Source of the DNA: an uncultured Clostridia bacterium
GTDB taxonomy: Bacteria > Bacillota > Clostridia > Christensenellales > UBA3700
NCBI GenBank assembly: GCA_944383935.1
Contig: CALWRK010000005.1
Location: forward strand, 1 to 33,907
Direction of reading: 5' to 3'
DNA: 33,907 nucleotides
The position numbers were made by a program, and so were the translations under genes. Within the stretch, counting starts at the first letter, position 1; every line of letters begins with the position of its first letter. Of the stretch, positions 5,485 to 20,328 are shown piece after piece. The notes beneath the pieces are model-generated. The model worked only from the letters and a program-made list of their open reading frames with translations, ran no database searches and had not been told where the DNA came from.

Positions 5485-6468
5485 TTACTCCGCTATCTCG
5501 ATGCTCGCCACAAAATCCGTATTGGCATACACGTCGGCATACAACGTGAGGTCTTTGTTTATAACGCTTATCTCGTCGTAGTAGACCATGACGTCTTCCG
5601 CGAAAAATTCAAAGGACTTCATGCGGTCTTTGGTGGTGGACGTGATGCTCACGCGCTCTTGGCGCATGGCGGATATCACGTTCCAGTTATAGGCGATGTC
5701 CTCGTCGTATCCGTATGAGAATATATCGCTTCCCTTGGGCAGACTTGTCAGCGCGTCCCCCTCCGGGTCATGCCAGCTGTCGTATTCGTTTCCGTCCAAA
5801 TCGTACACATACCTATACGCCACCTGCGCTATGTCCTGGTAAATCTTGAACCCGGAAGTCGCGGAAGTTATGTCCGAATAGCTGTCGGATATATCCGAAT
5901 AAGCGGTAAGCATATCGTACCACAGCGTGAGCAGATCGCCCATATCATAGCCGCCCACGGTATAGGTCATATCCTCCAAATCCGCCGCCGCGCCGTCGCC
6001 GTCCGCCGCGCCGTACTTCACCCATTCCACGGTGAGATTGCCGCTGCCGTCCACACTGCCCTTGGCGGAGGCGTAAGCTACGGGAGCGATATCCGAGTTA
6101 TTGTAGGTGTCCTCGTTTACGGGTAGATATATGGTGGCGGTAGTGGTGATGACCTCCCCTTTCTTTTCTATATCCAAATAGGCGTCCTCATACATCCAGG
6201 TGAAGCCCTCTTCTCCGTCCAACCAGCCGGGCGTACTCTCATCGCCGCGAGTGGCGCCGTTGTAGTAATAGTGAGTTATGTCAAAGGAGGTGGTGTAGTC
6301 ATACTTGGCAGTTTCAGTCATTATCGCTTTGAGGTCGGCATTCACCTTTTCCGCGTCTGTCAGCAATCCGGCATAGAAGTCCTCCATGGAGGCGGTACAC
6401 GCCGCCAGCACGGTTACGCTTATGACAAGCGCTATGACTACCGCAAGAAATATAACTTTACGCTTCAT
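5485..6468 (-). CDS. Uncharacterised lipoprotein, last gene of the uronate operon
   Basis: A 327-residue protein with a clear lipoprotein signal: charged MKRK, a hydrophobic core and the lipobox LAAC with the lipidated cysteine at C24. The mature part is acidic and rich in Tyr, Trp, Asp and Ser, with no domain I recognise. It begins inside the last codons of the symporter gene (11-base overlap) with AAGGAGG 8 bases before its ATG, so it is probably translationally coupled to the symporter. It is anchored outside the membrane, so a role in capturing or sensing the imported sugar is a guess from context. It does not look like an ABC solute-binding protein. A second unrelated-looking lipoprotein of similar size starts the operon (20329-21483). 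Confidence 0.75.
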   Translation of the reverse strand: MKRKVIFLAVVIALVISVTVLAACTASMEDFYAGLLTDAEKVNADLKAIMTETAKYDYTTSFDITHYYYNGATRGDESTPGWLDGEEGFTWMYEDAYLDIEKKGEVITTTATIYLPVNEDTYNNSDIAPVAYASAKGSVDGSGNLTVEWVKYGAADGDGAAADLEDMTYTVGGYDMGDLLTLWYDMLTAYSDISDSYSDITSATSGFKIYQDIAQVAYRYVYDLDGNEYDSWHDPEGDALTSLPKGSDIFSYGYDEDIAYNWNVISAMRQERVSITSTTKDRMKSFEFFAEDVMVYYDEISVINKDLTLYADVYANTDFVASIEIAE

Positions 6469-8083
6469 CGTTTCCGCCCTCCTTGTTTTCGAAGATATCG
6501 TCGGACGCAGCTTTCATATCCTCCGCTACCGACTGAGCCATGCTGTCGGGGATTTCCCCCACGCCTGCGCCGCCCTCGGCTGCAAGCGCCATGCCCTCCG
6601 TCTGCGCCGTGACCACGTTGCCTTCATCGTCTAGGATCTCGCCCTCGGCAAGTCTGCGCTCGGCAAGGCGCACCTGTATCTCCGCCATCTTCTTGCCCGA
6701 GAGCTTATAGAACAGCATGGGCACGATGGAGATGAGGTTGAGCACTGCGGGAATGAGCGTATACATGAGGAACAGACCCGACTGAGTGAACTGCGACTGC
6801 ACGGGATGGTGATCGTTGAGGAATCCCTCCGGTTGAGCGAACAGGAAGAATACGAGCAGCCACGAAAGGAAATAGTCCTTGAATGCAGAGGACATATTGC
6901 TGCGCAAAGACATGATTGCGAAGGTGACGCCCTCGTTTCTATTGCCCGTCTTTTCTTCCCAATAGTCCAGCGTATCCGTAGCCATCAGGTGAGGCACGAC
7001 GTTCAAGATACCTACCGGCATCATGGCGATGAACATCATTATAGCCACCGTGTACCACTGATTTCCGCCCGCGATGTAGATTATATACACAAGTGCCAGC
7101 GCCACAGAGTGCCATATCGTAGCCATTATAAACAGCTGCTTTGCGTCCATCTTGGATTTGAGTTTGGGCGCCAGGAGCATACCTATAAGCGAGGCGATTG
7201 CGCCGGGGAGGGAGAACCATATCTGCAAGCCGGAATCGTTGAAGATGTAGGTGACCACATATATGATGGACGCCGACACCAAATTCCTGAAAAATGTGAG
7301 CAGATTGGATAGTATCAGCAGCAAAAATTGTCGGTTTTTGAATAGGTACTTAAATCCTTCCCACCACGACAGCTTTTCCACCGTGGGCGCCAATCTTTCC
7401 TTTATGCTCAAGCTGCCCAGTACCATGAACAGGGTACCGAGGACGCCGATAACGATTGCCACCAGCAAGTACACGACGGTGTAGTTGTTGCTGAACAAAA
7501 GTCCGAAGGATATAAGCACAAGGGCGGACTGTTCGCCGATGGAACCCAAAATACGGCTGATGGAGATGAGCTTGGTGCGCTCTTGCGTGTTAGGGGAAGC
7601 CACTGCGGGGATACCGCCCATGGGCACGCCCACGATAGAGGATATCGTACAATAGAGTATGTATGTTATCCACATATAGGCTATTTTACCAGCGCTTTTA
7701 AAGCCCGTTACCGGGATGAACAGGGCTATGGTTATAATGCCCCACGGCACAGACGCGAATATCATATACGGGCGCATCTTACCCCACTTGGTGCGCGTTT
7801 TGTCGATGATAATACCTATGCTGGGGTCGATGATCGCGTCGAATATCTTCGAAACGAGGAACATCATACCCACGGCGGTGGGATCGATACTCACGCACAC
7901 GGTATAGTAGAACAGCAGGTAACCTTGCACAAGTCCGGTGATGGCACTGCTTGCGAACTGCGCCATGGAAAAGAAGATGTAGTCGCGCGGCTTCAAGTAC
8001 TTCTTGTTGAGTTCTTCCGCCTGCAACGCGTCATCTTGTTCGGGCATGATTTCCTGCGGCTGCTGTTCAACTGCGTTTTCCAT
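6458..8083 (-). CDS. GPH-family (MelB-like) sugar:cation symporter
   Basis: A 541-residue transporter of the glycoside-pentoside-hexuronide symporter family in the major facilitator superfamily, a group that includes glucuronide carriers. Visible family signs are PRDYIFFSMAQFASSAITGLVQGYLLFYYT in the first membrane segment, SKIFDAIIDPSIGIIIDKTRTKWGKMRPYMIF (loop 2-3 motif with the cation-site Asp residues), and KEDYWEEKTG-like LDYWEEKTGNRNEG in the central part. About 12 membrane segments can be counted. The C-terminus carries an unusual acidic, Ala-rich tail of about 60 residues beyond the last membrane segment. AGGAGG lies 7 bases before the ATG. Given the neighbours, the substrate is probably a glucuronide or uronate-containing oligosaccharide. 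No ABC or PTS importer is present in the operon. Confidence 0.88.
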   Translation of the reverse strand: MENAVEQQPQEIMPEQDDALQAEELNKKYLKPRDYIFFSMAQFASSAITGLVQGYLLFYYTVCVSIDPTAVGMMFLVSKIFDAIIDPSIGIIIDKTRTKWGKMRPYMIFASVPWGIITIALFIPVTGFKSAGKIAYMWITYILYCTISSIVGVPMGGIPAVASPNTQERTKLISISRILGSIGEQSALVLISFGLLFSNNYTVVYLLVAIVIGVLGTLFMVLGSLSIKERLAPTVEKLSWWEGFKYLFKNRQFLLLILSNLLTFFRNLVSASIIYVVTYIFNDSGLQIWFSLPGAIASLIGMLLAPKLKSKMDAKQLFIMATIWHSVALALVYIIYIAGGNQWYTVAIMMFIAMMPVGILNVVPHLMATDTLDYWEEKTGNRNEGVTFAIMSLRSNMSSAFKDYFLSWLLVFFLFAQPEGFLNDHHPVQSQFTQSGLFLMYTLIPAVLNLISIVPMLFYKLSGKKMAEIQVRLAERRLAEGEILDDEGNVVTAQTEGMALAAEGGAGVGEIPDSMAQSVAEDMKAASDDIFENKEGGNDEA

Positions 8084-8113
8084 AAATTTCCTCCTGATTT
8101 ATTTTATATGGGG

Positions 8114-10048
8114 TTATTCCTCGGGCTGCTTCAAATGCTTTTTGAAGAAGTCGCCCTCCGGATAACTCATGACGAACGCGCCCGTGGACGACCATGCCTG
8201 CAAGAGGGAGCCGTCCGGATGGATGGGGCTGTAAAACTCCACGGGTGTGTAGTTGCCCTTTCCCACGTTGTATTCAAACCACCTGAGCAGCGGATACTTG
8301 TAGTCCATGCCGTAAGCCAGCTTGGCATAGGCGTAGATGTTGGACCAATACGGCCAGTCGCCGCCGTTGTGGTAGTATGCGGGCAGAGAGGATTTTTGCA
8401 CTATATCCCACGCCCTCTTGTAGTAAGGATATACGCTCATGGTGCCCCAGTCGCCCATACCCTGCTCCTTGTTGTTGCGCGTTTCCAGCCACTTTTCCAT
8501 ATTTTCCAGCATACGCCTTGCGCGCGCGTCGTCGGCTATGCCGAAAAGTGCGGTTATGACGGTATCTATGGACAAGTTGTCCTCCGTGAAGTCGCCGTCC
8601 ACATAGTTATTGTACCAGCCTTTTTCCTCATTCCAAAGCAATTTGTTGATCGCATCTTTAACCGAGCTGTAATCTCTGTAAAAAGCCTCTCTCCTATCCT
8701 TATTCCCCAGCGCGCCGCTTATCTCGGACGCCGCTTGCAGCGCCCTGCAATAAAGCGCCTCGTCATAGGTGACGTAACCGCCCCTGAACACGTTGTCGCA
8801 CCAGTCGCGGCGGTTGTACTTGCCGCCCTTGACCAAAAGTCCCGTGTCGTCCACTTCCTTCTTGAATCTGTCCAGCACCGCGCAGACGAGCTCGTATACC
8901 GTAGCGCCGTTCACTCTCTCAGAGAGTACGGATTTGTCCCCCGTATGCACCACATAGTCGTACGTCATTATGACAAAGAAGGAGGGGGAATCGTAGTGGT
9001 TGCCCCAATGGCACTTGAAGTTATACCTCACCGCCGTGCCGCACTCCCCTTTCTTGTTTATGCCGTGCGCCAAGGTGATTATCTCATTGCGCACCAGCTC
9101 GGGCTTTACGGGAAGCACGGACAGCACCGTCCAGTAGCCGTCGCGATAATAGGTACGGGCGGGAAACTGATAGACTATGCCCGCCAAAAAGCCCTTGAAC
9201 TTACCCAATTCCTTATAGTTGGACAGCGAGCAGTTGAGCAGGGACTTGTAATACGTCTGCTCCATTAAATCGGTGACGTGTGCGGGAGGGATGAGGGAAT
9301 CTATGTACTCCGCCGCCTCCTTCATGGCCTCGTCAAAGTGCCTGAGCCTCTCCTTCACGTCGCAGAAGGTGTAGTCGCCGCGCGTGCCCGCGCTTATCAC
9401 ATAGCGGAACACTCCCACTTCTCCGCATCTCACCTTTCCGCCCACGGAAAATTGATTGAAAAAGCCGCGATCTGCTTCTCCCATCTTTCCGCCCTTTGAG
9501 AGGGCGGCGTCTATGTAGAAATCGCCCATCACCTTTCCGCGCAGGATGAGCGCCTCGCCGTCGCGCTCTTGCGTCTGCTTCTTCCCGCTCAAAAATCCGC
9601 CCGCTATCCTGAGCAGATTGCCCGCGGTCAGACGCGCGCCCGGAAGCTGATCCACATACGACTGGTAGTTGATGCCGAAGTTCATCACCGCCTCGAAGTC
9701 CGTATCCTCCTTGGCGTCCACGGAAAACTGCACATATATGCAGTTGTGGGCGTTGTCCAAAAACTGCGTGATGTGTATATCCGCCTTGTCCGTATATACC
9801 GTGGTTATCTGGCGCCTTCCCACCATATCCGCTTTCTTGTCACGGATATAGTCCAGCGGCACTCCGTCCACGGTGAGCAGGGTGTAGAATTTGCTGAACA
9901 CCTCGTATTTGTTCATAACCGCATAGCGCGAGATGGCGCCCCTGCCGTCGAACTGCGCGGTTATGGCGTTATTACCCGCGTCGTACAGCGCTTCTTCCCA
10001 CAGCTTGCCGTAAGCGGTTATACCTCCGCCCTTGTATTCGTTCTTCAT
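8114..10048 (-). CDS. Cytoplasmic glycoside hydrolase-like protein, probable (alpha/alpha)6 barrel
   Basis: A 644-residue protein without signal peptide, so it should act inside the cell. The N-terminal third (about 1-220) is beta-rich. The rest looks like a six-hairpin glycosidase barrel with conserved aromatic and acidic segments: PARTYYRDGYWT, FKCHWGNHYDSPSFFVIMTYDYVVHTGD, GKYNRRDWCDNV and, near the C-terminus, YYHNGGDWPYWSNIYAYAKLAYG, a pattern shared with several inverting glycosidase families. I cannot assign a CAZy family from the sequence alone; glucosidase-, rhamnosidase- and glucuronidase-type families are all possible. It lies between a sugar oxidoreductase and the symporter, which fits cleavage of the imported uronate-containing sugar. 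The gap to the upstream gene is 12 bases. Confidence 0.65.
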   Translation of the reverse strand: MKNEYKGGGITAYGKLWEEALYDAGNNAITAQFDGRGAISRYAVMNKYEVFSKFYTLLTVDGVPLDYIRDKKADMVGRRQITTVYTDKADIHITQFLDNAHNCIYVQFSVDAKEDTDFEAVMNFGINYQSYVDQLPGARLTAGNLLRIAGGFLSGKKQTQERDGEALILRGKVMGDFYIDAALSKGGKMGEADRGFFNQFSVGGKVRCGEVGVFRYVISAGTRGDYTFCDVKERLRHFDEAMKEAAEYIDSLIPPAHVTDLMEQTYYKSLLNCSLSNYKELGKFKGFLAGIVYQFPARTYYRDGYWTVLSVLPVKPELVRNEIITLAHGINKKGECGTAVRYNFKCHWGNHYDSPSFFVIMTYDYVVHTGDKSVLSERVNGATVYELVCAVLDRFKKEVDDTGLLVKGGKYNRRDWCDNVFRGGYVTYDEALYCRALQAASEISGALGNKDRREAFYRDYSSVKDAINKLLWNEEKGWYNNYVDGDFTEDNLSIDTVITALFGIADDARARRMLENMEKWLETRNNKEQGMGDWGTMSVYPYYKRAWDIVQKSSLPAYYHNGGDWPYWSNIYAYAKLAYGMDYKYPLLRWFEYNVGKGNYTPVEFYSPIHPDGSLLQAWSSTGAFVMSYPEGDFFKKHLKQPEE

Positions 10049-10060
10049 GATCGCCCTCTT

Positions 10061-11248
10061 TTATTTCTTTACTCCGGAGACTTTCTCCTCTTCTATGCGC
10101 TTTTGCAGCTGCGCGTAATATCTGTCCTCATCAATGGGGAAGTTGACCACCTCTCCCGTCCAGCCGGAGAGATGGATGGCGTTTGAGAACATCAAACCCA
10201 CTATCCCCTCCTGTCCGGGCGCTATCAGCTTGTCGCACTTGCCCAAAACGCGCAGGGTGAAGTTTCTGATTATCTTCATCTGCTGCCCCACTCCCGCATT
10301 GGTGATGACTTCGGATAGGGGCTGACGATAGACGTGCTTTTTCGTCTTCATCTTATAGGTGGTCCAATCGCGCTTTACGCCCGCTTCGCGCTCTTTGGCG
10401 CACTTTGCGGAAAATTCCGGCTCGGACATCTCATTTTCGATAAATTCCAACTTTTTGAGTCCGCCGCCGCTTATGACTATCTTTCCCCTGTCGCCGGAAA
10501 TTTCCAGCCTGTTCGTGCCGGGGAATTCATGTGTGGAAGTGATGAACACGCCGGACGCGCCGCCTTCGAATTCGCAGTACGCCGTCACGTCGTTTTCCAC
10601 GTTTATCTTTCTTCCCACCGTTTCCGCGGTACTCCACACCCTTTTGATCGGCTTGCCCGCTATCCAAGTGAACAAGTCCAGCTGATGGGGGTCCTGATTT
10701 ATGAGCACTCCGCCGCCTTCGCCGCCCCAGGTGCCGCGCCAGCCGCCCTGGTCGTAGTACGCCTGCGAACGGTACCAGTTGGTTATTATCCACACTATGC
10801 GCTTCAAATTGCCCAGCTTTCCGCTCTCCACCAACTCCTTGGCTTTGCGATAGGCGCTGTTCGTGCGCTGATTGTAGAGTACGCCGAATACCTGCTTGGG
10901 ATGACGCGCCGCGCACTCGTTCAGTTCCCTGACCGCCTTGGTATATACGCCTATGGGCTTGTCGGAGAGGACGTGCAGTCCCTCTTCCAGCGCCATCGTG
11001 CCTATCACGGGGTGGAGGTAGTGAGGCGTATCTATTATGACCGCGTCCACCTCCCCGCTCTTTATGAGATCTTCGTATTTTTCATACGTCTTTACTCCCC
11101 AGTCGCGCGCGGCGTTCACCAGCTTTACCTTGTCCACATCGCACACCGCCGTAAGGACGGCGTTCTTGTCCCCGCCCTTGGCAAGGGCAGCCGCATAGCC
11201 GCCGCCCTGTTTTCCTATACCTATTATTCCGTATCTTACCTTATCCAT
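10061..11248 (-). CDS. Gfo/Idh/MocA family NAD(P)-dependent sugar oxidoreductase (copy 1)
   Basis: 395 residues. The Rossmann motif GIGKQG is at residues 10-15. The family's EKP catalytic motif appears as DKP (96-98), a tolerated variant, and the C-terminal domain has the signature GGWRGTWGGEGGGVLINQDPHQLDL with H188, the usual catalytic histidine position. Members oxidise or reduce a ring or chain hydroxyl of sugars, inositols or glycosides. The start overlaps the TIM-barrel gene by 8 bases, so the two are probably co-translated. It is clearly paralogous to the protein at 12185-13318 (same WR-x-x-W-x-GEGGG-x-LINQ-x-x-HQLDL block). The substrate is unknown. Confidence 0.88.
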   Translation of the reverse strand: MDKVRYGIIGIGKQGGGYAAALAKGGDKNAVLTAVCDVDKVKLVNAARDWGVKTYEKYEDLIKSGEVDAVIIDTPHYLHPVIGTMALEEGLHVLSDKPIGVYTKAVRELNECAARHPKQVFGVLYNQRTNSAYRKAKELVESGKLGNLKRIVWIITNWYRSQAYYDQGGWRGTWGGEGGGVLINQDPHQLDLFTWIAGKPIKRVWSTAETVGRKINVENDVTAYCEFEGGASGVFITSTHEFPGTNRLEISGDRGKIVISGGGLKKLEFIENEMSEPEFSAKCAKEREAGVKRDWTTYKMKTKKHVYRQPLSEVITNAGVGQQMKIIRNFTLRVLGKCDKLIAPGQEGIVGLMFSNAIHLSGWTGEVVNFPIDEDRYYAQLQKRIEEEKVSGVKK

Positions 11249-12182
11249 TTATGTCCACCCCCGCTTGTCCGAGTAGTTTTTTGAGTCCGTTGTACTGCCA
11301 CAGGAACATGGTCTTTCTGTCTGCCGTCTGGAAGCGCTTCATGCCCTTGTTTTTGTCTATCATGCGAAAAACGCGGTGCCACTTGGAGATATAGGGGATA
11401 GCCCAAGTGACCCAGCACAGGCACTGGAACAACACCTTGTGGTCGGCATATTTGCCCGTATGCGGCTCCAAGGTCATAAAGCCGTCGTAACCCCTGTCCG
11501 CCACCAAGTCTTTGAGCAGCTTGGGATAGTTGCCTTCTCCCATACCTACGGGCACTTCCACGCGGTACTTGGAGCAGTCCTTGATGTGGTAGTATACGCA
11601 ATGCTCCTTTACGATATTGTAACTCTCCCATGCGTCGTAGCCGCACTGTATGTAGTTGGACGCGTCATAGCACAGCTTGAACTGCGGGTCGGAGATAGCC
11701 TTATACAGCTTGACGCAGCGATTGGGTTCGTCGCCGTATATGCGCTTTTCGTTCTCGTGTATGAGCACGACATCCGTACCCTTCACCTTTTCCAAAAAGC
11801 CTTTGAGCTTTTTCACCACGGTGTCGTAAGCCTTTTCGTACTCGTCCTTTTTCAGACGGAAAGAAAAGACGCGGATATACTTGCAGTCCATTATTTTGCA
11901 TATCTTTACCAACTCTTCCAGCTTTTTCAGCTGCGCTTCATACGCGTCGTCGTCATCCCAGCGTATCTTTCCGATGGGGGAGCCTATGGAAGAGAACTTC
12001 ACGCCGTACTTGTCCAGCGTGGGCTTGACCTGCTTTTCGAACTCCTCCGCCGTGTAAGAGGCGATATTTCTGCCGTTTACCACGCGCGGACACATATACG
12101 TTTCGCCCAGCTCCTTTACCAGCTTGCACTGGGTCTCCAAATCGGGCGACACTTCATCGTAAAATCCCGATATCTTTACCAT
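11241..12182 (-). CDS. Sugar phosphate isomerase/epimerase-like TIM-barrel protein
   Basis: 313 residues from the ATG at 12182, chosen because GGGAGG lies 9 bases upstream; a TTG three codons earlier (12191) would overlap the preceding stop codon. It belongs to the xylose-isomerase-like TIM-barrel superfamily (IolE, hydroxypyruvate isomerase, EndoIV fold). The expected metal ligands are visible: E143 (LIHENEKRIYGD), D173 (LCYDASNYIQCG), H199 (YYHIKDC) and E239 (MTLEPH). The N-terminus GFYDEVSPDLETQ and the SSIGSPIGKI stretch are typical of a subgroup found beside Gfo/Idh genes. Known activities in this fold include isomerisation, epimerisation and elimination on 3-keto-glycosides. It is sandwiched between two paralogous dehydrogenases, so it probably acts on their oxidised product. 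Confidence 0.85.
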   Translation of the reverse strand: MVKISGFYDEVSPDLETQCKLVKELGETYMCPRVVNGRNIASYTAEEFEKQVKPTLDKYGVKFSSIGSPIGKIRWDDDDAYEAQLKKLEELVKICKIMDCKYIRVFSFRLKKDEYEKAYDTVVKKLKGFLEKVKGTDVVLIHENEKRIYGDEPNRCVKLYKAISDPQFKLCYDASNYIQCGYDAWESYNIVKEHCVYYHIKDCSKYRVEVPVGMGEGNYPKLLKDLVADRGYDGFMTLEPHTGKYADHKVLFQCLCWVTWAIPYISKWHRVFRMIDKNKGMKRFQTADRKTMFLWQYNGLKKLLGQAGVDING

Positions 12183-12184
12183 TT

Positions 12185-13318
12185 TTAACAACCTCCCTTA
12201 TTTTTCTCCTCCGCCGCGTGAGCGCGCAGAGCAGCGGTATATGCCTTGCCGTCTATGGGCAATGTCATCTTCTTTCCCGACCAGTCGGAAGCGTAAACGG
12301 CGTTTATAAGCATAAGTCCGTTTATCCCCTCCTCTCCCGGCGCCAGCAGACGTTCTCCGGTATTCATACAGTGCACAAAATCGTTGAGTATATTGCACTG
12401 CTGTCCGTAAAGTCCGTCCCTTATCAAGTTTATCAGCCCGTATCTTACCGTATATTTTTTATATTTTTTATCCCTCTTGTTGCCGTAGTCGCGCGTGGAT
12501 TTTGCGTTTATCTGTGCTTCGTCGTTTTCCAGAAGATATATCTTCGCCTTGAACTTCCCCGCCCTGATAAGCCCCCTATCTCCGGCTATCTCCGTCATGT
12601 TCACCCCGGGCACTTCATGCGCGGAGGCGGTGAATACGACGTTGAAGTCCTTGTAAGCAAAGTTCGCCAGCACCTCGTTTTCCGTGCTTATCTTCCTGTT
12701 CACCGTGCGGCATGAAGCCTGCACGCTCTCGGGCATACCCAATATCCACTGCATCAAGTCCAGCTGATGCACGCATTGATTTATGAGCGTACCGCCGCCC
12801 TCTCCGCTCCAGCTTGCGCGCCAATTACCCATATCGTAATACACCTGCGAACGATACCAGTCTGTGACGGTCACGCTCGCACGGCGAATGGCGCCCAACT
12901 TGCCCGTCTTCACCAACTCGCGCACGCGTGCATATACCCTGTTGGTGCGCTGGTTATACATTATACCGAACAGCGCGCCGCTGTTTTTTGCGACTTCGTT
13001 CAGCTCCTGCGCCCACTCCACCGTAACGGAAACGGGCTTTTCCGTGAGTACCGCTATGCCGCGCAAGAGGAAGAATTTGGCTATTTCCACATGGCTGTAA
13101 TGGGGAGTGGCGACCACGACGGCGTCGAGTTTTTCCGCCTCCGCCATCTCCTTATAGTCCTCGTATGCGGGCACTTTAAGCCTTTCTGCCCGTTTACGAG
13201 CCGCCTTATCCGTGTCGCATACGCACGCAAGGAAAGCGCCCTTCACCCTGCCTGCGGCAAGGTTGGCGGCGTGTTTGGAGCCCATTCTGCCCACTCCGAT
13301 TACGGCTATCTTCCTCAT
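12185..13318 (-). CDS. Gfo/Idh/MocA family oxidoreductase (copy 2)
   Basis: 377 residues. The Rossmann motif GVGRMG starts at residue 8. The catalytic EKP is at 93-95, and NWRASWSGEGGGTLINQCVHQLDLMQW carries H183. The stop codon precedes the TIM-barrel start by 2 bases, and its own start overlaps the GDPD-like gene by 4 bases (ATGA). It resembles copy 1 along the whole length, so the pair probably arose by duplication and may act on related substrates or oxidise and then re-reduce the same sugar around the TIM-barrel step. The substrate cannot be read from sequence. Confidence 0.88.
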   Translation of the reverse strand: MRKIAVIGVGRMGSKHAANLAAGRVKGAFLACVCDTDKAARKRAERLKVPAYEDYKEMAEAEKLDAVVVATPHYSHVEIAKFFLLRGIAVLTEKPVSVTVEWAQELNEVAKNSGALFGIMYNQRTNRVYARVRELVKTGKLGAIRRASVTVTDWYRSQVYYDMGNWRASWSGEGGGTLINQCVHQLDLMQWILGMPESVQASCRTVNRKISTENEVLANFAYKDFNVVFTASAHEVPGVNMTEIAGDRGLIRAGKFKAKIYLLENDEAQINAKSTRDYGNKRDKKYKKYTVRYGLINLIRDGLYGQQCNILNDFVHCMNTGERLLAPGEEGINGLMLINAVYASDWSGKKMTLPIDGKAYTAALRAHAAEEKNKGGC

Positions 13319-13950
13319 TTAATCAGCCTCTTTATCCACTCGCGTATACGCGCGGGGTTATTGCACGTTAGATTGTACAATCCCAGTTTAACATATTTTT
13401 GCGCGTCTGCATCCGAATTTAACGTATAAAGCGAAACATTTATGCCCGCCGCCGTGCAGTCGGTCAAAAATTTCTCGCTTACCAAATACTTTCCCGCGTT
13501 TATGCCCGCCATATGGACGGGATCCTGCGCAAGACGCTGCTTTATCCTCTCCACATACCCTTCTTTGAAGGGAATGCCGCTGAGCTTATTGAAAAACACT
13601 CTGCCGCCGGAGAGTTGCTTTGTTTCTTCTTCGTCTATCACCCAGCCGGTGAAGAATATCTTATCCTCTATCCCCACCTTTCGCGCCAAGGCAAGCACAT
13701 CCTCTAAAAGCCCGCGTTCTTTCATATCGCAGTTGATATACAGTCCGTATTCCTTTGCCTTTTCAAAGGCGTATTCCAGCGAAAGACGCCTTTTGGAGAA
13801 CAGCGCGGGCAGATGGCTTATATACAGCCTCTTTCCCCTCTTCCTAACATCCACTTCCAGCGCGTCGCACCCGTATTCGGGAATGCGGGAAAAGTACATC
13901 TTACTGTTCCGTCCCGTACCGTGTGCTCCCCCATGAGCCGTGATAAGCAT
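13315..13950 (-). CDS. Glycerophosphodiester phosphodiesterase-like protein
   Basis: 211 residues with the GDPD TIM-barrel layout. N-terminal ITAHGGAHG corresponds to the canonical AHRG motif with Arg replaced by Gly. CDALEVDV supplies the two acidic metal ligands (about E48 and D50), and ISHLP supplies the second histidine, although the Asp normally following it (HD) is Leu. GLYINCDMKE matches the K/E-containing strand motif. The protein is shorter than most family members (about 240-300). GDPDs release glycerol 3-phosphate from deacylated phospholipids or teichoic acid. The altered motifs and sugar-operon context leave another phosphodiester or lyase-type substrate possible. GAGGGAG lies 6 bases before the ATG. 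Confidence 0.72.
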   Translation of the reverse strand: MLITAHGGAHGTGRNSKMYFSRIPEYGCDALEVDVRKRGKRLYISHLPALFSKRRLSLEYAFEKAKEYGLYINCDMKERGLLEDVLALARKVGIEDKIFFTGWVIDEEETKQLSGGRVFFNKLSGIPFKEGYVERIKQRLAQDPVHMAGINAGKYLVSEKFLTDCTAAGINVSLYTLNSDADAQKYVKLGLYNLTCNNPARIREWIKRLIK

Positions 13951-13983
13951 ATTTTTCTCCCTCTCGTATCTATGTATTTTATC

Positions 13984-13999
13984 CTGTCATGCATAACAG
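13984..13999. promoter_or_regulatory. Operator-like imperfect palindrome inside the operon
   Basis: CTGTCATGCATAACAG is a 16-bp palindrome with one mismatched pair. It lies in the widest internal gap of the operon after the lipoprotein-kdgA gap (13951-14004). A TAAAAT that could serve as a -10 follows it on the minus strand, but no good -35 is present. A regulator site or an internal promoter is possible. Confidence 0.3.
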
Positions 14000-14004
14000 A
14001 ACTT

Positions 14005-15294
14005 TCATTCTTTTATGTCGGGTATCTCGGACAAATCCACCTTTCTGCCGCCCTGCTTGCGCGAAAGCTCCGCCGCAGCCGCGACGCGATGACTTTCTAT
14101 GGTGTCCCGTATCCAGGTATATTGCTGCTTACTCTCGTCCAAGCCCTTCAACAACCCCACGGTCGCCTTTATTATGCCCTCATCCCCTCCGTAGTGCCCC
14201 TTGATTACGGGAATGATGTTCACCACTATCTTTTTAGTGCGCTTATCAAAGAGTTTCAGCTTTATCACGCTGCCCGTATCGTCTGCGTAAAGCTCCCCCA
14301 AACTGCCGCGTATCTCCGTATGGCGATGGTCGTTTTCGTTAAACGCGTTCACCGTCATCACTATCTGAGTGCCGCTTTCCGTTTCCATCTGCAAGGTCTG
14401 CAAATCCGCCACGTCGTTGTCGCACTTATACACGCAGCGCGCCCACATCTTGCCTCGGGGATCGTTTTTGAGCGCATCGATTATGTCCTTCTTCTTACCC
14501 GAAGTGCAAAAGGCGTATGTGCCCCACTTGAACTTGTGCCTGCCTATGAAAGGTCCCTTGTTCCTGCCCACATACTGATAGAGGCAGTCGTATATACACG
14601 TCTTGCTGTACTTGCAGTCAAAGCAGTTGTCCGCACTGCCTTCGGGAGCGTTCTCCCTCTTGAAGTGATACAATCCGCCTCGACAGGATACGCTCTTACA
14701 CTTGCTGCCGGTGAACCAATACAGAAGATCCAAGTCGTGGCAGCATTTTGCCAGCAGCATGGGGGAAGTTTCCTCCTCCTTGCGCCAGTTGCCGCGCACA
14801 TAGCTGTGGGCGAAGTGCCAGTAGGCGATATTCTCGTCGTGCTTGATGAGCATGATGTCCCCCAGCACTCCCGAGGCGATGAGTTTGCGGATATACTTGT
14901 AGTAGTTGGAGTACCTGAGCACATGACACACCAGCACTTTAAGTCCCTTTTCCCTCGCCTTTTTCTCTATTTCAAGGCACTCTTCTATGTTCGGACTGAC
15001 CGGCTTTTCCAAAAGCAGGTTGTAGCCCAAATCCAGCGCCTGCATGGCGTGACCGTAGTGGTCCCTGTCCTGGGTGGCTATGACCATGACGTCCGCCACC
15101 TTACCCTGCGCGAAGAAATCCCTCTCATCCGTAAAGCACGCCTTGTCGGGTACGCCCCACTTGTCCTTGACGTTGTCTATCTTGGCTTGATATTTGTCAC
15201 AGACGGAAACTATCCGCACCCCCTCGGTTTTGGCGAGATGACTGCCGTAATTTCTCCCCCTTGAACCCAAGCCCAGCACAGCGACTTTCAGCAT
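14005..15294 (-). CDS. Gfo/Idh/MocA family oxidoreductase (copy 3, cysteine-rich subgroup)
   Basis: 429 residues, longer than the other two copies and clearly of a different subgroup. The Rossmann motif GLGSRG starts at residue 8. The catalytic EKP is at 96-98, and H186 lies in AKCCHDLDLLYWF. The subgroup signature HFAHSYVRGNWRKEEETSPM precedes it. An insertion around 218-240 holds C224, C227, C233 and C237 (C-x2-C-x5-C-x3-C), a likely metal-binding knuckle. It starts 16 bases after the uxuB stop, with GGGAGGG upstream. A role in converting an incoming uronate derivative or glycoside before the core pathway is inferred from context only. Confidence 0.87.
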   Translation of the reverse strand: MLKVAVLGLGSRGRNYGSHLAKTEGVRIVSVCDKYQAKIDNVKDKWGVPDKACFTDERDFFAQGKVADVMVIATQDRDHYGHAMQALDLGYNLLLEKPVSPNIEECLEIEKKAREKGLKVLVCHVLRYSNYYKYIRKLIASGVLGDIMLIKHDENIAYWHFAHSYVRGNWRKEEETSPMLLAKCCHDLDLLYWFTGSKCKSVSCRGGLYHFKRENAPEGSADNCFDCKYSKTCIYDCLYQYVGRNKGPFIGRHKFKWGTYAFCTSGKKKDIIDALKNDPRGKMWARCVYKCDNDVADLQTLQMETESGTQIVMTVNAFNENDHRHTEIRGSLGELYADDTGSVIKLKLFDKRTKKIVVNIIPVIKGHYGGDEGIIKATVGLLKGLDESKQQYTWIRDTIESHRVAAAAELSRKQGGRKVDLSEIPDIKE

Positions 15295-15310
15295 AATTTT
15301 CCCTCCCGTA

Positions 15311-16132
15311 TCACACTCCCGAGTAGGCGGAAAAACCGCCGTCTATGGGGATGACTATGCCGGTGACGAAACTCGCCTGATTGTTATCCGTCAGCCATTT
15401 GAGCGCGCCCATTATCTCGCTTGCCTCTCCGAATCTGCCCATGGGCGTGCCGGCGAGTATCTTCTTCGTGCGCGCGGTGGGATTGCCCTCCTTGTCGAAC
15501 AAAAGTCCCCTGTTCTGATTGGTGACGAAAAAGCCGGGAGCTATGGCGTTTACGCGTATGCCCGACTTGGCAAAGTACACCGCCAGCCACTGGGTAAAGT
15601 TGGATATGGACGCCTTTGCTCCGCTGTATGCAGGGATACGCGTGAGCGGACGATATGCGTTCATACTGCTTATATTGACGATATTGCCCTGCCTTCCTAT
15701 CATATCCCCCGCAAACACCTGGGTGGTGAGGAAGGCGGAAAGGAAGTTGAGGCGGAACACGAAATCCACTCCCGCCGCTTCCAAATCGAAGAAGGATATA
15801 TCCCCTTCCTTCATCTCGCAATGCGTATCCTTGCTCGCCGTACCCTTGGGGGAGTTGCCGCCAGCGCCGTTTATGAGCAAATCGCACTTGCCCAAATCTT
15901 TGAGCACCTGCTCGTGCGCCGCTTGCAGGGACGCCTTGTCCAAACAGTCCGCCTTATATGCGACTGCTGTGCCGCCCGCGCTTTTTATCTCGCTTTCCAC
16001 CTTCTGCGCCGCGGGCAAATTTATGTCCAGCAGCGCGACTTTCGCGCCCATCGCCGCATATTCCTTGGCTATCTCGCCGCACAGCACTCCGCCCGCGCCC
16101 GTGATAACCGCAACTTTACCGCTCCATTCCAT
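15311..16132 (-). CDS. uxuB: SDR-type fructuronate reductase (D-mannonate oxidoreductase)
   Basis: 273 residues, a short-chain dehydrogenase. The cofactor motif TGAGGVLCG is at 11-19 and NGAGG at 88-92. The catalytic Ser is near 155 (NISSMNAY), with Y169 and K173 in YSGAK. Its NGAGGNSPKGT stretch and long loop resemble the Bacillus YjmF-type enzymes, which reduce D-fructuronate to D-mannonate. This is a different fold class from the E. coli UxuB of the long-chain family, so the symbol denotes function, not homology to E. coli UxuB. It lies directly after the mannonate dehydratase gene with AAAGGAG upstream, which supports the assignment. Confidence 0.85.
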   Translation of the reverse strand: MEWSGKVAVITGAGGVLCGEIAKEYAAMGAKVALLDINLPAAQKVESEIKSAGGTAVAYKADCLDKASLQAAHEQVLKDLGKCDLLINGAGGNSPKGTASKDTHCEMKEGDISFFDLEAAGVDFVFRLNFLSAFLTTQVFAGDMIGRQGNIVNISSMNAYRPLTRIPAYSGAKASISNFTQWLAVYFAKSGIRVNAIAPGFFVTNQNRGLLFDKEGNPTARTKKILAGTPMGRFGEASEIMGALKWLTDNNQASFVTGIVIPIDGGFSAYSGV

Positions 16133-16148
16133 ACTTTATCTCCTTTGA

Positions 16149-17204
16149 TTATTTCTCTTTCTTATATCCGCCGGAAACAGCTTCCGCCAGCCCGTAGAGG
16201 TACATCGCACCCAGCGCCCTGTCATACAAGCCGTAGCCCGCTCTTCCCTCTTCTCCCCAAATCATCCTGCCGTGATCGGGACGCACCCAGCCGTCAAAGC
16301 CGGTATCGTATAACGTCTTGACTATCTTGTACATATCCAACGAGCCTTTCACGCTGATATGCCCGCTCTCTTCAAAGCACCTATCCCCGGTTATCTTTAT
16401 ATTCCTCAGGTGCACAAAAGGGGTTCTGCCGGCAAAGGTTTTGAGCATATCCGCCACGTCGTTGTTCGGATTCACGCCCAAACTGCCCGTGCACAGGGTA
16501 AGCCCGTTGTAGGGGCTGTCCACTATGTTCAGCAGGCGACGCAGATTCTCCTTATTCGTGACTATCCTGGGCAGTCCGAACATCCCCCACGGCGGATCGT
16601 CCGGGTGGATTGCCAATTTTACGTCCGCCTGTTCCGCTACGGGTACCACTTCCTTCAAAAACACGGTGAGATTCTTCCACAACGCCTCTTCATCCACGCT
16701 CTCATACTTGTGCAGCAGCTCCTTCATGCCGTCCTTTGTATAGCTGCTGTCCCAGCCGGGCAGAGAAAGCTCGCTGGTGAGCGGATTCATGCCCAGCACC
16801 GTCTTGTGGTCGTACGCCAAGGCGTTGGAGCCGTCTGCAAGCGGCTTTTTCAGCTCGCTCCTCAGCCAGTCGAACACGGGCATGAAGTTGTAGCACACGC
16901 ACTTTACGCCCGCTCTTCCCAGGCGCACGATGTTCTCCTTATATACGTCGATGAGTCTGCCCGCGTCCCTTGCGCCCAGTTTTATGTCCTCGTGCACGGG
17001 TACGCTCTCCACCACCTCGAATTTGAGATTGTGCGCCCCCGCCAGGCTCTTTATCTTTTCTATACTCTCTTCGCTCCACACTTCCCCCACGGGAGTGTCG
17101 TATACGGCGGACACTATGCCGTCTATGCAGGGGATTTGCTCTATCTTATCCAGCGTTACGGGATCGTCCTCCCCGTACCAGCGGAAAGTCATGCGCATAT
17201 TCAT
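16149..17204 (-). CDS. uxuA: Mannonate dehydratase
   Basis: Dehydrates D-mannonate to 2-keto-3-deoxy-D-gluconate (KDG). The 351 residues match the shorter Gram-positive UxuA length. The TIM-barrel N-terminus MTFRWYGEDDPVTLDKIEQIP is characteristic of the family. Conserved stretches include CYNFMPVFDWLR, the HPDDPPWGMFGLPRIV metal and substrate segment, LTLCTGSLG, and the C-terminal HVRNIK-like FVHLRNIK and GWVRPDHGRMIWGE. The ATG overlaps the uxaC stop codon (ATGA) with GAGGAG just upstream, so it is tightly coupled to uxaC. Confidence 0.96.
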   Translation of the reverse strand: MNMRMTFRWYGEDDPVTLDKIEQIPCIDGIVSAVYDTPVGEVWSEESIEKIKSLAGAHNLKFEVVESVPVHEDIKLGARDAGRLIDVYKENIVRLGRAGVKCVCYNFMPVFDWLRSELKKPLADGSNALAYDHKTVLGMNPLTSELSLPGWDSSYTKDGMKELLHKYESVDEEALWKNLTVFLKEVVPVAEQADVKLAIHPDDPPWGMFGLPRIVTNKENLRRLLNIVDSPYNGLTLCTGSLGVNPNNDVADMLKTFAGRTPFVHLRNIKITGDRCFEESGHISVKGSLDMYKIVKTLYDTGFDGWVRPDHGRMIWGEEGRAGYGLYDRALGAMYLYGLAEAVSGGYKKEK

Positions 17205-18586
17205 CTCTTCTCCTCCTCTATGAGCCTATGAGCGTTGTAATACGAAAGGTCTTTTGCCACAGACACGGCGCAGCCGCTCGCCTTTTCCGGCGTGACGTGC
17301 GAGAGAAACTCGCAGAGGATGCGCCTGAAATAGTCGTGGCGAGGATAGGACAAGAACGATCTGCTGTCTGTGAGCATACCCACAAGATTGTCTATGCAGG
17401 AAAGTTCCGCCGCAGCCGCGAGCAGTTCCGTTATCCCCCTTTTATGGTCGTTGAACCACCAGCTTATGCCGGGCACCGCGCCGCGAAACGCGCCGCACAG
17501 CGTGATAAGTTCGTAGTAGAGGGTGGGATTTAGCGAATAAACTATCGTCTTGGGCATACCGCCTCTCTCTTGCACCAGGTTGAACATACGGCGGAGCGCG
17601 GGGACGGAGATATTCTCTCCCACGCAGTCGAAGCCGCTGTCGCGTCCGCACCTATTCAACATCTCGTCGTTGGAGTTGCGCGTCACGCACAGGTGCAACT
17701 GCATGACTATGCCGCGCTTTTCATATTCCCTCGCGAGGAATATGTAGAGGTTGCCCATAAGTTTGTCGCAGCTTCGGGTACGGGCATTTTTCCCATCCCC
17801 CGTCAATATCTCCGCAAAACTCGCGTTAAGGCGCCGCTCGTCAAACTCGAACTGTTCGGGGAATCCCTCCACGCCCACGTCGCTGAACTTGCAGCCCATG
17901 GAGCAGAAATAGTCCAGCCGCCTGAGTATGGCTTGCTTATAGTCGTCGAAATTTTTGATATTCACGCCCGCCGCCTTTCCCAGCTTTTTCACATACTCCT
18001 TGAAATCGGGTGCGTGCATATTCACCAAATTGTCCGTGCGGAAGGAGGGCGTCACCTTTACTCCGTACCCTTCTTCCCTTAAAAGTCTGTGGTATTTCAA
18101 GTCGTCGCAGGGGTCGTCCGTGGTGGCGATGTATTCCACGTTATTCATAGCTATGGCTTTGCGGGGAGAGAGTTTTTCCCGTTCTATCACCGCATTGCAC
18201 TCCTCCCATATCTCCTCGGCGTACTCGGGGAGAAAGGGCTTTGTCACGCCGAAGAACTTTTCCAGCTCCATGGCAGTCCAATCCCACACGGGATTTCCGG
18301 GGGAACGGGACACCGCGTCGCAGAAAGCCAAATACTTCTCCTTTCTGCTTTTGCCGCCCGTTATATACTCTTCGTCTATGCCCGCCGCGCGCATGAGCCT
18401 CCACTTGTAGTGGTCGCCGTCAAGCCACATCTGACCTATATTTTCAAAGGGCTTGTCCTCGTATATCTCCTTGGGCGAGAGGTGACAGTGATAGTCCACA
18501 ATGGGCAAATCTTTCACCTGTCCGTATATCTCGCGGGCATAGTCGGACGTGAGCACGTCCACGATGTTACCGTTGCACTCTGCCAC
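17201..18586 (-). CDS. uxaC: Glucuronate (uronate) isomerase
   Basis: Isomerises D-glucuronate to D-fructuronate (and D-galacturonate to D-tagaturonate); amidohydrolase-fold enzyme. I chose the GTG at 18586 because GGGAGG lies 8 bases upstream and it yields 461 residues, the normal length. The longer reading from 18634 only adds 16 residues that overlap kdgK. H33 and H35 in VDYHCHLSP are the usual metal ligands. Other conserved parts are TTDDPCDDLKYH, KVTPSFRTDN, GMQLH-like IVMQLHLCVTRNSN, and the C-terminal GMLTDSRSFLSYPRHDYFRRILC. The gene start overlaps the end of kdgK by 20 bases. Confidence 0.96.
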   Translation of the reverse strand: MAECNGNIVDVLTSDYAREIYGQVKDLPIVDYHCHLSPKEIYEDKPFENIGQMWLDGDHYKWRLMRAAGIDEEYITGGKSRKEKYLAFCDAVSRSPGNPVWDWTAMELEKFFGVTKPFLPEYAEEIWEECNAVIEREKLSPRKAIAMNNVEYIATTDDPCDDLKYHRLLREEGYGVKVTPSFRTDNLVNMHAPDFKEYVKKLGKAAGVNIKNFDDYKQAILRRLDYFCSMGCKFSDVGVEGFPEQFEFDERRLNASFAEILTGDGKNARTRSCDKLMGNLYIFLAREYEKRGIVMQLHLCVTRNSNDEMLNRCGRDSGFDCVGENISVPALRRMFNLVQERGGMPKTIVYSLNPTLYYELITLCGAFRGAVPGISWWFNDHKRGITELLAAAAELSCIDNLVGMLTDSRSFLSYPRHDYFRRILCEFLSHVTPEKASGCAVSVAKDLSYYNAHRLIEEEKR

Positions 18587-19589
18587 TTGCGTCACCTCCC
18601 ATAAGTTTTTCCGCCTCTTTGAGGGAGAGTACATTGAAATCCCCCTCCACGGTATGTTTTATCGCGGAAGCCGCCACCGCCAGCTCCACCGCCTCTTGGG
18701 CGCTCCTGCCCGAAGAAAGGGCATATATGAGTCCCGCGCCGAAGCTGTCGCCTCCGCCCACTCTGTCCACTATATCCAAATTGTACTTTTTGGATATGTA
18801 CGCCTTTTTGCCGTGCACCAGCACCGCAGACCAGTTGTTCCTGCTGGCGGAGATACTCTCGCGCAGAGTGAACGCCGCATATCCGATGTTGGGGAACATA
18901 GCCGTGACCCTTTCTCCCAACTGAGCATATGCGCTGGCGCTGAGATGTCCGCCAGTAATGTCGCTCCCCTCCGCGGTAAGCCCCAACACGTCCTTGCAGT
19001 CCTCTTCGTTGGAGATGAGCACGTCCACATAGCGCAAAAGCTCGCGCATTGTCTTGCCCGCCTCCTCCCTGCTCCACAGTTTGGCGCGGTAGTTGAGGTC
19101 GCACGACACCGTCATACCCCTCTTTTTCGCCGCCTTGACCAATTTAAGCGTGGTCTGCGCCACATTCTCCCCAAGAGCGGGTGTTATGCCCGTAAAGTGC
19201 AGCCAACCCGCACCTGCCAGCACTTTGTCCTCATCCACCATATCGGGAGTTATCTGACTTATTGCAGAATGCGCCCTGTCGTAGATTACGTTGCTCGCGC
19301 GCACTCCCGCTCCCTTTTCGCAAAAGTATATACCCATTCTGTCGCCGCCGCGCAGGATACGCGAGGTATCCACGCCCCAGCCGCGCAGCTCCTTTATGCA
19401 CTTATCCGCGAGCACATTCTCGGGCAGACGGGTAAAAAAAGCCGTGTCCGCGCCCAGCTGAGAGAGGGATACGGATACGTTGGCTTCTCCTCCGCCGTAC
19501 ACCGCCTCGAAGGCGTCCGCCTGCATTATGCGCTTATAGCCGTAGGGCTGCAAGCGCAGCATTATCTCCCCGAAAGTGACTATCTTCAT
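18567..19589 (-). CDS. kdgK: 2-keto-3-deoxygluconate kinase (PfkB family)
   Basis: Phosphorylates KDG to KDPG with ATP. 340 residues, typical of the ribokinase/PfkB fold. The N-terminus MKIVTFGEIMLRL and YGGGEANVSVSLSQLG match the first signature. The second signature VDRVGGGDSFGAGLIYAL, around residue 282, carries the catalytic Asp; the first Gly-Ala-Gly-Asp variant is GGGD. The start overlaps the end of the aldolase gene by 4 bases (ATGA). Placement between aldolase and isomerase makes KDG the likely substrate, although other PfkB sugar kinases share these motifs. Confidence 0.92.
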   Translation of the reverse strand: MKIVTFGEIMLRLQPYGYKRIMQADAFEAVYGGGEANVSVSLSQLGADTAFFTRLPENVLADKCIKELRGWGVDTSRILRGGDRMGIYFCEKGAGVRASNVIYDRAHSAISQITPDMVDEDKVLAGAGWLHFTGITPALGENVAQTTLKLVKAAKKRGMTVSCDLNYRAKLWSREEAGKTMRELLRYVDVLISNEEDCKDVLGLTAEGSDITGGHLSASAYAQLGERVTAMFPNIGYAAFTLRESISASRNNWSAVLVHGKKAYISKKYNLDIVDRVGGGDSFGAGLIYALSSGRSAQEAVELAVAASAIKHTVEGDFNVLSLKEAEKLMGGDASGRVQR

Positions 19590-20233
19590 CTCGCGCCACC
19601 TCTAATCTGTTTCACCTTGTCTATAAAGGCGTGTGCGGTGCGCGCGACTTCCTCATAGTCCCCCCTTTTGGCGCCCGCGGTGAGAAAAGAACCTGCGCCT
19701 ACGGCTGCAGCGCCCGCCTTGAACCAATCTTGAACATTGTCCGCGCTCACGCCTCCCGTAGGCATGATATCCGCCTGCGGGAAAGGACCTTTCAGCGCCT
19801 TTAAGCCGGAGGGCTTATATACGTCCCCGGGGAAGAGTTTGACCAGTCCCGCGCCCGCTTCCAGCGCCTGTTGAAGCTCCGTAGCCGTACCTATGCCGGG
19901 GATACAGAGCACGCAATATCTGTTGCACAGCTTTATCGTTTCGGCATTGAATGAGGGCGCGACTATGAACTGCGCTCCCGCCAGCATCGCCGCCCTTGCC
20001 GTTTCCGGGTCGAGCACGGTGCCCGCGCCCACGATTACCTTGTCGCCGTATTCCTTCACGAGCGAGGAGATCACTTCGCTTGCCCCGGGCATGGTGTAAG
20101 TGACTTCTATCACGTCCACTCCCCCGGCTATGCACGCACGCGACGAGCGCACGCCCTCGTCGCAACTTGCGCCCCTTATCACGGCGATGACGCCGCTTGC
20201 CTTGATTTGTTCAAGAATTTGCTCTCTCTTCAT
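19586..20233 (-). CDS. kdgA: 2-keto-3-deoxy-6-phosphogluconate (KDPG) aldolase
   Basis: Splits KDPG into pyruvate and glyceraldehyde 3-phosphate. 215 residues, the normal length of the trimeric class I aldolase (eda-type). E43 in VIEVTYTMPG and the Schiff-base lysine K132 in LVKLFPGDVY are in place, as are GAGTVLDPE, VAPSFNAE, IPGIGTATE and MPTGGV. A GGAGGGAG site lies just before the ATG. The gene follows a hairpin that ends the lipoprotein transcript, so it may have a weak promoter of its own in the AT-rich 20240-20298 (TTGATA present, -10 uncertain). Confidence 0.95.
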   Translation of the reverse strand: MKREQILEQIKASGVIAVIRGASCDEGVRSSRACIAGGVDVIEVTYTMPGASEVISSLVKEYGDKVIVGAGTVLDPETARAAMLAGAQFIVAPSFNAETIKLCNRYCVLCIPGIGTATELQQALEAGAGLVKLFPGDVYKPSGLKALKGPFPQADIMPTGGVSADNVQDWFKAGAAAVGAGSFLTAGAKRGDYEEVARTAHAFIDKVKQIRGGAR

Positions 20234-20286
20234 TCTACTCCCTCCGCTTCCCCCCGCGGAACCATATAAAATATTATTTATTTATC

Positions 20287-20322
20287 CTAATATATCAAAG
20301 GCAGACGCTTTTGCGCCCGCCT
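20287..20322 (-). terminator. Hairpin between lipoprotein gene and kdgA; probable partial terminator
   Basis: On the minus strand a 10-bp stem (arms at 20313-20322 and 20299-20308, two G-U pairs) with a TTTT/AAAA loop is followed by TTTGATATATT, an imperfect U tract. It lies 6 bases after the lipoprotein stop codon. Leaky termination would lower expression of the downstream genes relative to the lipoprotein. Confidence 0.65.
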
Positions 20323-20328
20323 CGTAAG

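Follow-up and report, generated by a model that had tools for sequence, protein, structure and literature searches.

The cleavage of C- and O-glycosides by oxidation followed by elimination is a known pathway, and the structure of a glucuronide-3-dehydrogenase, P2B11 (8TDI), has been deposited, its primary paper reportedly being Nasseri et al., Nature 2024, from the Withers group. Here, we describe a locus that appears to join this type of chemistry to glucuronate catabolism, found in a 33,907-nucleotide stretch of DNA (the window) from an uncultured Clostridia bacterium of the order Christensenellales (GCA_944383935.1, contig CALWRK010000005.1). A prediction made from the sequence alone, referred to below as the original prediction, had placed three Gfo/Idh dehydrogenases (GfoA, GfoB and GfoC) and a metal-site TIM barrel within a glucuronate operon, and all four genes are confirmed there on the minus strand. 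Judging from homology and gene context, we lean moderately towards the reading that the operon extends glucuronate catabolism with a non-hydrolytic front end, namely oxidation by GfoA, elimination/hydration by the barrel, which carries an H-E-N-E-K motif (the HENEK barrel), and reduction by GfoB. The three genes at its core are as follows.

10061..11248, minus strand: GfoA, 395 aa, P2B11-type glucuronide 3-dehydrogenase by homology, proposed oxidising step
11241..12182 (ATG start), minus strand: HENEK-type TIM barrel, 313 aa, AP_endonuc_2 (PF01261), proposed lyase/hydratase
12185..13318, minus strand: GfoB, 377 aa, paralogous P2B11-type dehydrogenase, proposed 3-keto-glucuronate reductase

Of the described systems, P2B11 resembles the locus most closely, sharing with GfoA the Gfo/Idh fold, a common clade, the catalytic residues and a glucuronate context, while the window differs in adding GfoB as a second P2B11-type paralogue and in having no HNH eliminase. 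HNH eliminases, represented by AtOGE (8bvk) and by 8TCD/8TCR/8TCS/8TCT, resemble the HENEK barrel in being xylose-isomerase-like TIM barrels with one metal, Asp, His and Glu ligands and a 3-dehydrogenase as genomic partner. They differ in that their H-N-H is E-N-E in the barrel, with Glu in place of each His, the metal ligand as well as the catalytic residue, and in that identity is about 17% in the profile alignment. The C-glycoside eliminase type PuCGE/DgpC, working with the dehydrogenase DgpA, offers the same succession of oxidation and elimination and a Glu as first metal ligand; in contrast, the barrel lacks the catalytic His, no gene for a small second subunit is seen in the operon and DgpA is distant. 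AtHYD (8ro4), a 2-hydroxy-3-keto-glucal hydratase, has the barrel fold (Z 24.2), a Glu metal ligand and a similar kind of pathway, but it carries an E-x-H motif and hhalign gives it only 46% probability with the window's barrel family. Finally, the Escherichia coli YcjR/YcjS/YcjQ system, which acts as a 3-keto-glucoside 4-epimerase, also combines dehydrogenases with one barrel, and the YcjR metal set is likewise E/D/H/E; it has no close sequence relation to the locus, however, and epimerises rather than cleaves.

The paired dehydrogenases and the barrel between them

In a phmmer search of all solved proteins, GfoA matched P2B11 over residues 1-389 (E 2e-101, 343 bits, against 131 bits for the runner-up), with 45% identity over 404 columns. 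GfoB, which is 43% identical to GfoA and so fits the two flanking paralogues originally described, also matched P2B11 over its full length (E 1e-70, 242 bits, runner-up 104 bits; 37% identity). Both retain the catalytic Lys of the KP motif and the Asn...His residues (K97, N184 and H188 in GfoA; K94, N180 and H184 in GfoB). These positions reach 95% conservation or more among relatives and are identical in P2B11, as are 72 of the 77 positions conserved to that extent among GfoA/P2B11-type relatives. A maximum likelihood tree of 71 rows, obtained by a quick search and with some long (outgroup) branches, places GfoA, GfoB and P2B11 in a clade of 56 rows with a Shimodaira-Hasegawa-like approximate likelihood ratio (SH-aLRT) support of 99. 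Within it GfoA and P2B11 group together (98), with GfoB in a clade of its own as their sister (95). Inositol, UDP-sugar and sulfoquinovose enzymes fall outside, as do the genome's own IolG, the Lactiplantibacillus plantarum inositol dehydrogenase, 3q2k and SqgA. GfoC lies outside as well, which corrects the original grouping of the three.

The same comparisons displace DgpA/DgpC, the model originally put forward, since the DgpA-type relation of GfoA is weak (E 1.5e-12 for 7xr9 and 1e-15 for 9m37) beside that to P2B11. The curated NCBIfam models for the BT_2158 glycoside 3-dehydrogenase and the BT_2159 disaccharide 3-dehydrogenase, with cut-offs of 750 and 650, gave at most 58 bits. Assignment of GfoA as a P2B11-type glucuronide 3-dehydrogenase, which by this homology would oxidise glucuronides at C3, is strongly supported. 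Of 391 Clostridia genomes in the sample, 54 carry a dehydrogenase of this type at E 1e-100 or better.

The barrel lies two bases from GfoB and overlaps GfoA by eight, in line with the tight packing first noted. Its start is taken as the ATG at 12182, which has a good Shine-Dalgarno sequence, while the longest open reading frame (ORF), 11241-12191, begins with a TTG three codons upstream. The AlphaFold2 (AF2) model is confident (predicted local distance difference test, pLDDT, 91), and among the matches listed in a fold search the top ones are all xylose-isomerase-like barrels (Z 22-26), with AtHYD, UlaE, IolE and IolI tied near Z 24. The fold search therefore singles out no family. The predicted metal site proposed earlier, E143, D173, H199 and E239 in ATG numbering (E146, D176, H202 and E242 in the longest-ORF numbering, P0001), proved correct and is invariant in 17 homologues with identity down to 52%; H-E-N-E-K is likewise invariant in 17 close relatives, and 96 out of 99 relatives have HENE.

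Of the two His residues of H-N-H in AtOGE, the first is a ligand and the second is essential for catalysis, the H134A variant being dead; C-glycoside eliminases retain the catalytic His (PMC10628242). The hhalign profile register sets E146-N-E148 of the barrel (P0001 numbering) over this H-N-H, so that Glu145 (ATG numbering) occupies the position of AtOGE His134. None of 8bvk or the 8tc* entries was recovered in a profile search with the barrel. Neither the motif of AtHYD nor a sequence relation to it was found, AtHYD having E-L-H and its homologue at locus L183 E-T-H where the barrel has E-N-E. Membership of the known 3-keto-glycoside eliminases or the hydratase was therefore rejected, on account of the Glu standing in place of the catalytic His. 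By these sequence comparisons the barrel is a family of its own, with a shared fold and metal set and a different predicted catalytic residue. Of the oxidation/elimination idea, then, 3-keto oxidation of a uronate-bearing substrate is strongly supported for GfoA and GfoB, while the kinship of the barrel to known eliminases is not; the barrel lacks their catalytic His, so that elimination is argued from the genomic surroundings and not from family membership.

Genome context and the operon

Context was surveyed in 80 genome loci found via the barrel, with neighbours counted within 9 kb and several of the misses being due to short contigs. Either uxuA or uxuB lies near the barrel in 71 loci and a P2B11-type dehydrogenase beside it in 74, with two such dehydrogenases in 55. 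The order UxaC-UxuA-UxuB-(GfoC-GDPD)-GfoB-TIM-GfoA is conserved in dozens of genomes at protein identities of 50-95%, an association far beyond chance, and barrel relatives at 92-93% identity are found in gut metagenomes, that of the chicken among them, under the names Christensenellaceae or Clostridia. For the converse view, 20 Clostridia loci were picked by the dehydrogenase only and same-strand barrels were counted at up to 4 kb: a HENEK-family barrel is present in 16, an HNH barrel in ten and at least one of the two in 19, with a second Gfo in ten and uronate genes in seven. These HNH barrels match AtOGE (8bvk) and 8tcd/8tcr/8tcs/8tct, entries whose codes adjoin that of 8TDI. The recurrent pairing argues that the window's barrel and dehydrogenases belong to a module in which a 3-dehydrogenase is joined by one or more barrels. 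At L161, which of all the loci comes closest to P2B11 (66%), uxaC-uxuA-uxuB, an HNH barrel, a second Gfo, a P2B11-type Gfo, a HENEK barrel and a major facilitator superfamily (MFS) transporter are found together, so that the nearest genomic relative of P2B11, like GfoA, adjoins both the uronate genes and a HENEK barrel.

In the window's own family of genomes, the HNH eliminase is absent genome-wide from 11 of the 12 searched, while the same model finds real eliminases at E 1e-92 to 1e-100 in genome G098 and in two genomes of another family. The HENEK barrel is therefore the sole candidate lyase in the operon of this lineage. In a further genome (G189) the set is split between two loci, one (L089) holding the HENEK barrel, GfoC, the 211-aa protein, the (alpha/alpha)6 protein and a symporter and the other (L200) GfoA, GfoB, an HNH eliminase barrel and uronate genes, a split that serves as a natural experiment in which of the parts go with one another. 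Elsewhere, carboxylesterase-type genes adjoin the dehydrogenase/barrel pair (17238-18305 at L094 and 13644-14846 at L124), which suggests esterified uronide substrates at those loci.

The window's contig (C5) belongs to a genome bin of 1.37 Mb that is 88% complete. The operon spans 5485-21483 on the minus strand and comprises 14 genes with intergenic gaps of -68 to +95 bases. Read from 21483 to 5485, its first half is a lipoprotein-like gene, KdgA, KdgK, UxaC, UxuA, UxuB and GfoC, and its second half the 211-aa protein, GfoB, the TIM barrel, GfoA, the 644-aa (alpha/alpha)6 protein, the GPH symporter and another lipoprotein-like gene. Its identity as a glucuronate operon, as first read, is borne out by UxaC, UxuA, an oxidoreductase of the short-chain dehydrogenase/reductase (SDR) type, a PfkB kinase and a KDPG aldolase. 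The genes other than the core three are these.

5485-6468 and 20329-21483, at the operon's two ends: lipoprotein-like proteins, no Pfam match
6458..8083, minus strand: GPH-family cation symporter (TIGR00792, 263 bits, cut-off 231)
8114..10048, minus strand: 644-aa (alpha/alpha)6-barrel glycosidase-like protein (Pfam, GH94/GDE/GH78 superfamily)
13315..13950, minus strand: 211-aa protein, GDPD-like by eye, lineage accessory
14005..15294, minus strand: GfoC, 429 aa, distant Gfo/Idh protein with Cys cluster
15311..16132, minus strand: UxuB, SDR-type D-mannonate oxidoreductase (NF006132, 406 bits, cut-off 281)
16149..17204, minus strand: UxuA mannonate dehydratase (PF03786, TIGR00695)
17201..18634, minus strand: UxaC glucuronate isomerase (PF02614)
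18567..19589, minus strand: KdgK-type PfkB kinase (PF00294)
19586..20233, minus strand: KdgA, KDPG/KHG aldolase (PF01081)

With its ATG taken as the start, UxaC shares 68 bases with KdgK, and the true start probably lies farther downstream. Both terminal lipoprotein-like proteins evolve fast, the one at 5485-6468 sharing 20-34% in other genera. Beyond the operon, a radical SAM protein with a helix-hairpin-helix motif at 31185-32429 is probably a putative DNA modification/repair type.

Three genes have a narrower distribution than the core, GfoC occurring in 37, the 211-aa protein in 39 and the (alpha/alpha)6 protein in 44 of the 80 loci, each limited to part of the tree; they are lineage-specific accessories, perhaps trimming or adapting a particular substrate. 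GfoC shares about 27% with GfoA and GfoB over 210 aa only, and its matches to various Gfo/Idh proteins, at about 1e-14, are confined to their N-terminal 200 residues, the best solved match being 6z3b (E 2e-14 across 207 aa only). It has conserved features of its own, including a Cys cluster, NCFDCKYSKTCIYDC, in an insert not found in GfoA, GfoB or P2B11; several of these Cys residues are conserved across 37 relatives and the cluster is possibly a metal site. The 211-aa protein, unnamed in the original prediction although it lies among the four genes in 10061-15294, has no match in Pfam or NCBIfam and looks, by eye, GDPD-like. The 8114-10048 protein, whose AF2 model from a single sequence reaches pLDDT 33, is assigned at superfamily level only.

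The proposed route and its alternatives

The route proposed for these genes would begin with entry of a glucuronide through the GPH symporter, which probably imports the intact glycoside; its presence in the operon points to uptake of a small, uncleaved glycoside, which the (alpha/alpha)6 protein may trim. By homology to P2B11, GfoA with NAD+ would oxidise the glucuronyl residue, still in its conjugate, at the C3 hydroxyl to give a 3-keto-glucuronide, which the HENEK barrel, on grounds of chemistry and context, would eliminate and/or hydrate. GfoB would then reduce the resulting 3-keto-glucuronate to glucuronate with the NADH from the first step, and glucuronate would pass to UxaC and on to degradation by UxuB, UxuA, KdgK and KdgA, enzymes of established families. 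A fuller version can be put forward tentatively, as possible rather than probable: that the HENEK barrel represents an undescribed class of 3-keto-glucuronide lyase/hydratase performing both elimination and hydration through its Glu-Asn-Glu site, and that with the paired dehydrogenases it completes a redox-neutral machine for cleaving glucuronides that is joined to glucuronate catabolism and occurs widely in Christensenellales of the gut and in other Clostridia.

Several observations weigh against the proposed route. On the side of the barrel, they are the Glu at the catalytic-His position, the absence of any solved sequence relative at E 0.01 in the search of all solved proteins, and a fold comparison that picks no winner among eliminase, hydratase, IolE and epimerases. 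On the side of the dehydrogenases, P2B11 occupies a subclade separate from that of GfoA, and no uronate gene was found in the stretch read of 13 of the 20 wider-clade Clostridia loci, so that substrates may vary across the wider clade. Glucuronides could also be hydrolysed in the conventional way, as the same genome encodes two GH2 proteins nearest the beta-glucuronidase LacZ4 (on contigs C16, L195, and C88, L196), scoring 535 and 489 bits where the curated cut-off is 950. The notion that this genome is without glucuronide hydrolases was rejected for the same reason.

Among the alternatives, the one that survives best, although we regard it as unlikely, is that the HENEK barrel is a hydratase only, converting 2-hydroxy-3-keto-glycal uronate to 3-keto-glucuronate, with elimination left to an HNH barrel at the loci that have one and to something else in the window's lineage, or with the (alpha/alpha)6 protein cutting the bond. 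Loci with two dehydrogenases and two barrels (L161, L164, L165, L168 and L100) would fill all four steps of oxidation, elimination, hydration and reduction, and the (alpha/alpha)6 gene (44 of the 80 barrel loci) and the HNH gene (13) never co-occur in one locus. This mutual exclusion was rejected as evidence, however, since on the barrel tree each of the two genes changes only about three times, so that the loci are not independent observations. The known hydratase, AtHYD, moreover carries E-x-H and not E-N-E, and clusters with HENEK alone occur without a nearby (alpha/alpha)6 gene (L110, L124 and L126).

Slightly more doubtful is a redox epimerisation in the manner of ycjQRS, in which GfoA would oxidise C3, the barrel invert a neighbouring carbon and GfoB reduce the product, turning an unusual uronide into a glucuronide or glucuronate. 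Two paralogous dehydrogenases with one barrel follow the logic of the E. coli ycj route, and the barrel has the E/D/H/E metal set of epimerases, counts YcjR and UlaE among its fold matches and finds its sole NCBIfam match in the L-ribulose-5-phosphate 3-epimerase model, at 25 bits where the cut-off is 317. P2B11 is named for glucuronide, however, and dehydrogenases of the same clade adjoin HNH eliminase-type barrels in half of the loci picked by dehydrogenase, while clusters with both HNH and HENEK barrels suggest a single lyase pathway.

Catabolism of inositol, inosose or levoglucosan, with the Gfo proteins as IolG or levoglucosan dehydrogenase and the barrel as IolE or IolI, is highly improbable and already refuted by the curated cut-offs, the similarity of GfoA and GfoB to the IolG equivalog being weak (96 and 113 bits, cut-off 355), the Gfo proteins reaching 52, 59 and 33 bits with the levoglucosan dehydrogenase model (cut-off 650), the barrel giving no match to the IolE equivalog and the tree setting IolG apart; the grouping with such enzymes that would have told against the original prediction was thus not found. 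A separate myo-inositol operon, IolC-IolD-IolE-IolA-IolG, lies elsewhere in the same genome (contig C26, L181, 3028-10259) and passes its cut-offs (IolG 465 bits; IolE 411 bits, cut-off 290), which makes it a good internal control and shows that the glucuronate operon is not one for inositol.

Implications for glucuronide use in gut Clostridia

As far as the data show, three aspects of the locus are new: in Christensenellales, genes of the oxidation/elimination kind are fused with a complete glucuronate operon; the P2B11-type dehydrogenases come as a pair of paralogues, GfoA and GfoB; and the barrel belongs to a family that has Glu where the catalytic His would be, with no classical eliminase alongside it in this lineage. 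The liver excretes drugs, hormones and toxins mainly as glucuronides, and many plant glycans are capped by glucuronate; the reactivation of glucuronides in the gut is usually gauged by counting beta-glucuronidases. If the proposed route is true, there would be a second, non-hydrolytic route for glucuronides, common in gut Clostridia and unseen by glycosidase annotation, which could act on bonds beyond the reach of hydrolases, and in the barrel family the same chemistry, performed with a different catalytic residue, could be put to the test.

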